From positions 1 to 42,526 of the forward strand of contig CANQCG010000012.1 in the NCBI GenBank assembly GCA_947589645.1: a stretch of DNA of 42,526 bases, written 5' to 3'. Numbering within the stretch: position 1 is the first letter of the stretch; each line of letters begins with the position of its first letter. Source of the stretch: an uncultured Clostridia bacterium. Lineage in GTDB: Bacteria > Bacillota > Clostridia > TANB77 > CAG-508. A program made the translations under genes and the position numbers. The notes under the pieces were generated by a model, which saw nothing but the letters and a program-made list of their open reading frames with translations, searched no databases and was not told the origin of the DNA. Below, piece after piece: positions 41,957 to 42,526 of this stretch.

Positions 41957-41989
41957 TTATTTCACCTTCTACTTATTCAATAAAATAAA

Positions 41990-42027
41990 AAGTCAATAAT
42001 TAAGAGATACCTCAAAACTATTGACTT
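41990..42027 (-). terminator. Terminator of the tRNA cluster
   Basis: AAGTCAATA near 41990 pairs with TATTGACTT (42019-42027) with a partly paired interior, followed by TTTTATTTTA on the minus strand. It ends the Lys-Glu-Thr tRNA transcript. Confidence 0.75.
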
Positions 42028-42031
42028 CATT

Positions 42032-42338
42032 TGGAGCCACTTGTCCGACTTGAACGGACGACCTACTGATTCATACTACCACAATTTTCATTGCCACAAT
42101 AAGTGTTTGTAGTCTGGACTTTCTCTTTGCCATGACGTAAAGTTTTAGGCACATCGTATAAAGTCTCTACACTCAAGAATTACTTCTTTAGCTCGGGATT
42201 AACATATAATAAATTTAGTCTTCCCCGAATTAGCGATGTCCACTTTATAAGTTTCCTCATAAAGGTGCAAGATAGTTCAAAATAAATATTTTTATTTCTC
42301 CCACAAGTCAGTTGCTCTACCAACTGAGCTAAAGTGGC
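42032..42338 (-). tRNA. tRNA-Thr (UGU), interrupted by a group I intron
   Basis: The 5' exon is 42303-42338 (36 nt) and the 3' exon 42032-42071 (40 nt); joined they give a normal 76-nt tRNA with encoded CCA. Acceptor GCCACTT pairs with AAGTGGC, the D-arm is GCTCAGTTGGTAGAGC, the anticodon stem ACTGA pairs with TCAGT, the loop is CTTGTAA with anticodon TGT, and the T-arm is GTCCGTTCAAGTCGGAC. The exons match the usual clostridial tRNA-Thr(UGU). The 231-nt insertion falls between positions 36 and 37, next to the anticodon. The junction is unambiguous, because neither edge can be shifted. It lies 2 bp after tRNA-Glu. Confidence 0.93.
42072..42302 (-). ncRNA. Group I self-splicing intron (IC3-like) in tRNA-Thr
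   Basis: 231 nt, no ORF. It begins after U36 and ends in G, as group I introns require. P1: UGU|GGGA pairs with UCUUGCA (intron nt 31-37), with U-G at the splice site and guide GCA matching the anticodon. P2 (nt 39-60) is capped by a GAAA tetraloop. P3: ACATCG (64-69) with CGATGT (147-152). P4: TTCGGG (74-79) with CCCGAG (106-111) inside AATCCCGAGC, the Q element. P6: AAGAA/TTCTT. P7: GACTTT (138-143) in GTGTAGAGACT, the R element, with AAAGTC (181-186), the S element. P8: GCC/GGC. The layout closely follows the small tRNA introns of Anabaena and Azoarcus. Confidence 0.93.
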
Positions 42339-42340
42339 AT

Positions 42341-42415
42341 TGGTGACCCCGACGGGAATCGAACCCATGTCTCCGCCGTGAAAGGGCGATGTCTTAACCG
42401 CTTGACCACGGGGCC
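42341..42415 (-). tRNA. tRNA-Glu (UUC)
   Basis: A 75-nt cloverleaf with encoded CCA. Acceptor GGCCCCG pairs with CGGGGTC, the anticodon loop CTTTCAC gives TTC, and the T-arm contains GGTTCGATTCC. It is uninterrupted, between tRNA-Lys(UUU) and tRNA-Thr(UGU). Confidence 0.95.
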
Positions 42416-42452: not shown

Positions 42453-42526
42453 TGGTGAGCTATCCGCGACTCGAACGCGGGACAACTTGATTAAAAGTCA
42501 AGTGCTCTACCACCTGAGCTAATAGC
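42453..42526 (-). tRNA. tRNA-Lys (UUU), cut by the window edge
   Basis: 74 of an expected 76 nt are present, with encoded CCA; the first two bases lie beyond the right edge. The D-arm is GCTCAGGTGGTAGAGC, the anticodon loop CTTTTAA gives TTT, and the T-arm contains GCGTTCGAGTCGC. It is the most upstream visible gene of the tRNA cluster. Confidence 0.92.

Follow-up and report, generated by a model that had tools for sequence, protein, structure and literature searches.

Near one end of the window, the whole 42,526-nt stretch of DNA analysed from an uncultured Clostridia bacterium, the two halves of a tRNA-Thr(UGU) gene lie apart from one another, raising the question of what the sequence between them is and how a functional tRNA could be obtained from such a gene. 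The features of the locus are as follows:

42303..42338, minus strand: 5' exon of tRNA-Thr(UGU), tRNA positions 1-36, with the anticodon UGU at its end
42072..42302, minus strand: group I intron of 231 nt, ORF-less, preceded by U36 and with omega-G (42072) as its last base
42032..42071, minus strand: 3' exon of tRNA-Thr(UGU), tRNA positions 37-76, CCA encoded
42341..42415, minus strand: tRNA-Glu(UUC), the upstream neighbour of tRNA-Thr(UGU) within the tRNA cluster
42453..42526, minus strand: tRNA-Lys(UUU), truncated by the contig end, first in a Lys-Glu-Thr cluster that is kept in relatives
41989..42028, minus strand: intrinsic terminator directly 3' of tRNA-Thr, a 13-bp outer stem followed by UUUUU (-17.3 kcal/mol, z -6.2)

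An earlier note on this DNA had described two halves of a perfect tRNA-Thr(UGU), 231 nt apart and broken after position 36, and ARAGORN in intron mode agreed, calling a perfect tRNA-Thr(tgt) on the complement of 42032-42338, 76 nt after joining, with an intron of 231 nt separating position 36 from position 37 (cttgt|aatca). When ARAGORN was run without intron mode, the split tRNA-Thr(UGU) was missed in the window. The exact boundaries were confirmed by uninterrupted alleles from the same genus that match the joined exons. Four genomes (G365, G359, G375 and G439) carry an uninterrupted tRNA-Thr(UGU) that equals the joined exons at all 76 nt (100% identity). Where the contig reaches far enough, this gene stands in the Lys(UUU)-Glu(UUC)-Thr(UGU) or Glu-Thr order seen in the window, and close intron-free versions were seen at that cluster position in three others (G066, G455 and G379). 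The gene was split in 6 of 118 genomes of the genus (G000, which is the genome of the window, G267, G367, G463, G369 and G394). An assembly artefact was ruled out, the same intron being present in independent MAGs (rabbit, sheep and goat gut, other projects). Together with comparisons of fold and splice sites, the intron-free alleles support the original view that tRNA-Thr(UGU) is interrupted after position 36 by a group I intron.

The paired regions of the intron were assigned as follows:

42305-42299 with 42272-42266, minus strand: P1, in which exon U34 G35 U36 pairs with intron GCA
42243..42264, minus strand: P2, 9 bp with a GAAA loop
42239-42234 with 42156-42151, minus strand: P3, 6 bp, with compensatory changes across hosts in five of the six pairs
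42227-42224 with 42197-42194, minus strand: P4, enclosing P5
42220-42218 with 42203-42201, minus strand: P5, inside P4
42169..42192, minus strand: P6 and P6a hairpin
42167-42161 with 42121-42116, minus strand: P7, with a bulged A and a conserved G-C pair, enclosing P8
42129..42150, minus strand: P8
42112-42109 with 42079-42076, minus strand: P9, with inner hairpins, one of which has a GAAA loop

P1 has its U36.G wobble at the splice site and extends four further base pairs into the intron, while the conserved G-C pair of P7 is presumably the guanosine-cofactor site, as would be expected from established knowledge of group I introns. All of the P1 to P8 pairings claimed previously for the insert exist, and of the 60 pairs drawn the window copy has 59 as standard pairs, the sole mismatch being A193/C205 in P8. 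When 32 introns from five tRNA hosts were aligned, RNAalifold found P3, P4, P5, P6, P8 and P9 unaided, and two-sided change was seen in 37 of the 57 pairs of its consensus, a count in which the tRNA arms are included. A second structure, the group I fold with its P7 pseudoknot, was drawn by hand and scored on the aligned introns. In 22 aligned Thr introns, 99.2% of base-pair cells were paired and 17 pairs showed two-sided change; across the 32 introns of five hosts the corresponding values were 90.8% and 36. As a control the pairing partners were slid, upon which the paired cells fell to 30-40%. Compensatory change was found in P2, P3, P5, P8 and P9, with P7 conserved and retaining a bulged A; the intron core was invariant, and across at least nine genera the fold was kept by compensatory changes. 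The minimum-energy fold of the single window intron was only mildly better than that of shuffled sequences (z -2.1), as would be expected of an AT-rich ribozyme with a pseudoknot, and covariation was therefore relied upon instead. Subgroup IC3 is marked by its core sequence and by tetraloop contacts between L2 and P8 and between L9 and P5; with a loosely defined motif, every copy showed GNRA-type sequences in both its L2 and its L9 stretch. To judge by their core sequence, the introns may belong to IC3.

The Rfam group I model RF00028, a search with which the earlier note had suggested, matched 42094-42289 on the minus strand with a score of 35.7 bits (E 1.6e-7 when searched locally, 9.3e-8 when calculated per genome). 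The gathering score of 50 bits, a curated cut-off and not a biological definition, was not reached, and taken alone the match would have been judged negative. RF00028 matches were obtained in 44 of 292 family genomes (17 of these 44 passing the gathering score) and in 33 of 287 genomes at order level. As the RF00028 score alone was arguable, relatives were collected for comparison, and a covariance model of the intron core, R1, was built from them. In the genome of the window, R1 finds three introns and RF00028 one. Besides the Thr intron on contig C12, they are:

C5:274-388 (L240:177-483): intron of tRNA-Tyr(GUA), 221 nt, after U35
C7:401-521 (L241:309-610): intron of tRNA-Asn(GUU), 226 nt, after U35

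Both host tRNAs were missing from an ordinary tRNA scan of this genome. Of the 292 family genomes sampled, 105 gave R1 matches, representing 19 of 39 genera, with at most three per genome. Among 391 class-level genomes, all matches fell within order TANB77 except one weak match (G834), and 398 phylum-level genomes gave three further matches, of which one was good (G1142, 66 bits). The latter (L242, G1142:C1:532981) comes from a GC-rich genome within the phylum but outside Clostridia and interrupts a CAU tRNA; the U/G rule would place its insertion between tRNA positions 33 and 34.

At exactly the site occupied in the window, 22 tRNA-Thr(UGU) introns were identified in relatives, with exons joined by ARAGORN and by hand. 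The hosts within the family were tRNA-Thr(UGU), Tyr(GUA), Asn(GUU) and Lys(CUU); a sister family added Leu(UAA). A census gave 155 distinct introns of 188-251 nt (64 Thr, all at the site used in the window, 55 Tyr, 31 Asn, 4 Lys and 1 Leu). A pattern scan of named genomes returned 49 stretches, all from MAGs labelled Clostridia, Clostridiales, Clostridium, Clostridiaceae or Lachnospira, with stated isolation sites mostly in rabbit, sheep and goat gut. The ARAGORN labels Phe, Ile and Asp given to some copies were rejected upon inspection by hand, these being tRNA-Asn(GUU) with U35|U36 and a terminal G, as was the label Pyl for four copies, which are initiator tRNA-Met. The longer group I introns in initiator tRNA-Met (L002, L004, L005 and L075) all have the usual G absent before the 3' exon sequence AACCCGA.

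The U before the insert and the G at its end, noted initially for the window copy, were the same in all 64 distinct tRNA-Thr(UGU) introns, and a U closing the 5' exon and a G as last intron base were found in 155 of 155 distinct introns, in a census whose patterns themselves required the host-specific U and G. As these bases were fixed by the search, the fit of the guide sequences and the intron-free alleles form the independent part of this evidence. The guide sequence was UUGCA in 64/64 Thr introns, UUGCAG in 55/55 Tyr introns, UUAGCAG in 31/31 Asn introns and UUAGGAG in 4/4 Lys introns. Each guide fits the 5' exon (P1) and the 3' exon (P10) of its own host, and the bases preceding its pairing G match the first bases of the 3' exon (AA or UAA), which is what P10 would require. 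An intron of the archaeal or eukaryal kind, with a bulge-helix-bulge removed by proteins, would share the anticodon-loop position; however, a 36/37 site with U.G and omega-G, a length of 231 nt, a full P3-P9 group I core and a bacterial host contradict protein splicing, which is vanishingly improbable here.

The preferred reading, to which we assign a probability of roughly 0.9 on comparative sequence evidence, is that the insert represents an intact group I ribozyme intron, without an ORF, which would splice itself out, belongs to a set inherited mostly vertically with losses and is tolerated because it removes itself. The Lys-Glu-Thr cluster would be transcribed as one precursor ending at the terminator past tRNA-Thr, and the intron would fold into its P3-P8 and P4-P6 domains. 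Guanosine bound in P7 would then attack P1 at its U36.G wobble. Once released, U36 would attack just behind the terminal intron G, and the ligated tRNA-Thr(UGU) would undergo its usual maturation. Splicing would be expected to occur in the cell independently of proteins. The set to which the intron would belong appears concentrated in order TANB77, the introns of tRNA-Tyr(GUA) and tRNA-Asn(GUU) in the same genome included.

The earlier note had also argued that, were this the only UGU-reading tRNA-Thr, the cell would depend on splicing for translation. The genome contains Thr(GGU) and Thr(CGU) tRNAs, and no second, uninterrupted tRNA-Thr(UGU) was found in it, so the proposed dependence stands, provided that the assembly (a draft of 49 contigs, 97.8% complete and without several other tRNAs) has not lost one. 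Likewise, this draft assembly yielded no Tyr or Asn tRNA without an intron. ACA accounts for 333 of 587 Thr codons in 29 ORFs of the window, and ACA together with all Tyr and all Asn codons makes up 1588 of 10468 codons counted, about 15%. Normal protein synthesis in this bacterium would thus probably depend on three self-splicing ribozymes (Thr, Tyr and Asn). It could be argued that the interrupted gene is a dead copy that no longer splices, with ACA read by another tRNA, given that the genome is a draft in 49 contigs and that one genome, G084, has an intact extra tRNA-Thr(UGU) beside tRNA-Val(UAC) (L173, G084:C7:17985) in addition to the interrupted gene. An intact Thr(UGU) was, however, absent from 16 of 17 intron-bearing genomes tested by pattern search, and Thr(GGU) and Thr(CGU) normally do not read ACA. 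The identity of the exons to intron-free alleles within the genus, the invariant core and the conservation of the fold over at least nine genera also argue against loss of function, and a dead copy is considered highly improbable.

The involvement of three tRNA genes, all interrupted at once and each with no second copy found, could further suggest a regulated checkpoint, in which the supply of guanosine, the general group I cofactor, or of Mg2+ would set the splicing of these three tRNAs, thereby gating the roughly 15% of codons affected. Against this, the introns are absent in many close relatives with no visible replacement, and at 188-251 nt they have no aptamer-sized extra domain, so that such regulation appears very doubtful. 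The related proposition that one ORF-less intron lineage, residing in four or five essential tRNA genes (at most three per genome), physiologically controls translation through a joint need for splicing, instead of being baggage that is tolerated, is likewise very unlikely. If the introns self-splice, as the preferred reading holds, some species would probably need ribozymes to translate ACA and every Tyr and Asn codon, and the intron-plus and intron-minus alleles within one genus offer natural pairs for measuring cost and loss.

In the intron tree, each host tRNA forms one clade and no host switching was seen, with support of 85/90 for Thr alone (97/95 with viral rows), 100/97 for Tyr and 100/100 for Asn. 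Grouping by genus required 15 changes for 14 genera in Thr introns (minimum 13, shuffled mean 48), 18 for 15 genera in Tyr introns (minimum 14, shuffled mean 40) and 13 for 12 genera in Asn introns (minimum 11, shuffled mean 23). As the trees largely follow host genera, inheritance appears to have been largely vertical, with many losses or absences, and one clade per host with grouping by genus suggests that each site was occupied rarely, followed by passage within the lineage. Mostly vertical inheritance does not account for the arrival of the intron in four or five different tRNAs.

That the intron is still spreading between genomes at a fixed site, by homing or reverse splicing, would accord with its patchy presence in the genus (6/118 genomes), with the occurrence of the same intron lineage in several tRNAs and of related introns in viral contigs and phages, and with one Tyr intron of another family that nests with genus g15. 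However, no endonuclease-sized ORF was found in the 155 introns (188-251 nt), the intron trees track genera closely with one clade per tRNA host and without switching, and BLAST of the window intron against phage and plasmid records gave no match. Active mobility is therefore regarded as unlikely, and a mostly vertically inherited, self-splicing intron remains the favoured explanation.

Group I introns in tRNA genes are a known kind, and the present ones are canonical, but their host tRNAs and bacterial group are unusual. The tRNA-Leu(UAA) intron of cyanobacteria and plastids is likewise small, of group I and sited in the anticodon loop; it is old and has mostly been inherited vertically, and an order-level relative (L094) and phage relatives have a Leu(UAA) intron after U34. 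The cyanobacterial and plastid intron differs, in a comparison by description only, from the window intron, whose host is Thr(UGU), whose site is 36/37 and which occurs in Clostridia, with several different tRNAs interrupted in a single genome. In proteobacteria, the tRNA-Ile(CAU) intron of Azoarcus and the tRNA-Arg(CCU) intron of Agrobacterium are also short and located in the anticodon loop, and self-splice in known cases; they are set apart, by description and not by sequence, through other host tRNAs and other phyla. The patchy group I intron of cyanobacterial initiator tRNA-Met shares the anticodon-loop location, but in Synechocystis it has a 150-codon ORF (PMC5733544), unlike the ORF-less Clostridia introns.

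A 2014 review table gives bacterial tRNA group I introns only in cyanobacteria, alpha- and beta-proteobacteria (PMC4033280), and a review of bacterial group I introns does not mention tRNAThr (PMC3984707). Group I introns have caused fMet and Ile2 tRNAs to be missed in 36 bacterial genomes (PMC8450103), some tRNAs of circularized, mostly CPR, genomes have group I introns (PMC8172020), and short introns have been claimed in cyanobacterial tRNA-Arg, Gly and Lys (PMC5733544). In the literature searched, mostly without subscription papers, no account of Clostridia with introns in tRNA-Thr, Tyr or Asn was found. The suggestion of a new or little-described tRNA-Thr case is upheld to that extent, but the case is not a lone one, with Tyr and Asn introns alongside and many genera involved. 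As about a third of the sampled genomes of this gut Clostridia family bear introns, both the host range and the tRNA range are widened, and these introns explain some of the tRNAs missing from such draft genomes.

Viral contigs (IMG/VR) gave no match to a close-core pattern, and a looser pattern found introns in tRNA-Arg(UCU). Among these records (L180-L224), 36 viral contigs carry a relative of roughly 200 nt in tRNA-Arg(UCU) after U34, and others have introns in tRNA-Leu(UAA) or in an apparent capsid gene. The viral tRNA-Arg(UCU) introns resemble the window intron in a core that matches the model built in this analysis at 91-95 bits (copies tested), in the U before the intron (U34|C35) and in the terminal G, but differ in tRNA and site and form their own clade. 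Phages are a possible source of the introns described here. Two viral tRNA-Leu(UAA) introns (L178 and L198) seem to contain a long reading frame, perhaps for an endonuclease, and a 735-kb phage record (LR756501.1, L226) has a tRNA-Leu(UAA) interrupted by a group I intron that shares this core. A tRNA-Leu(UAA) intron was also seen in a tRNA cluster (L358, G167:C1:51861-52411) on a contig with phage-type group I introns elsewhere, and six group I intron matches lie within 32 kb at G223:C1:129651-161328, probably in phage genes. In the crAss-like phage cr116_1 (L227), the DNA polymerase I gene is annotated as two pieces with an ORF between them, and the stretch matches, by BLAST, the core of a viral relative of the window intron.
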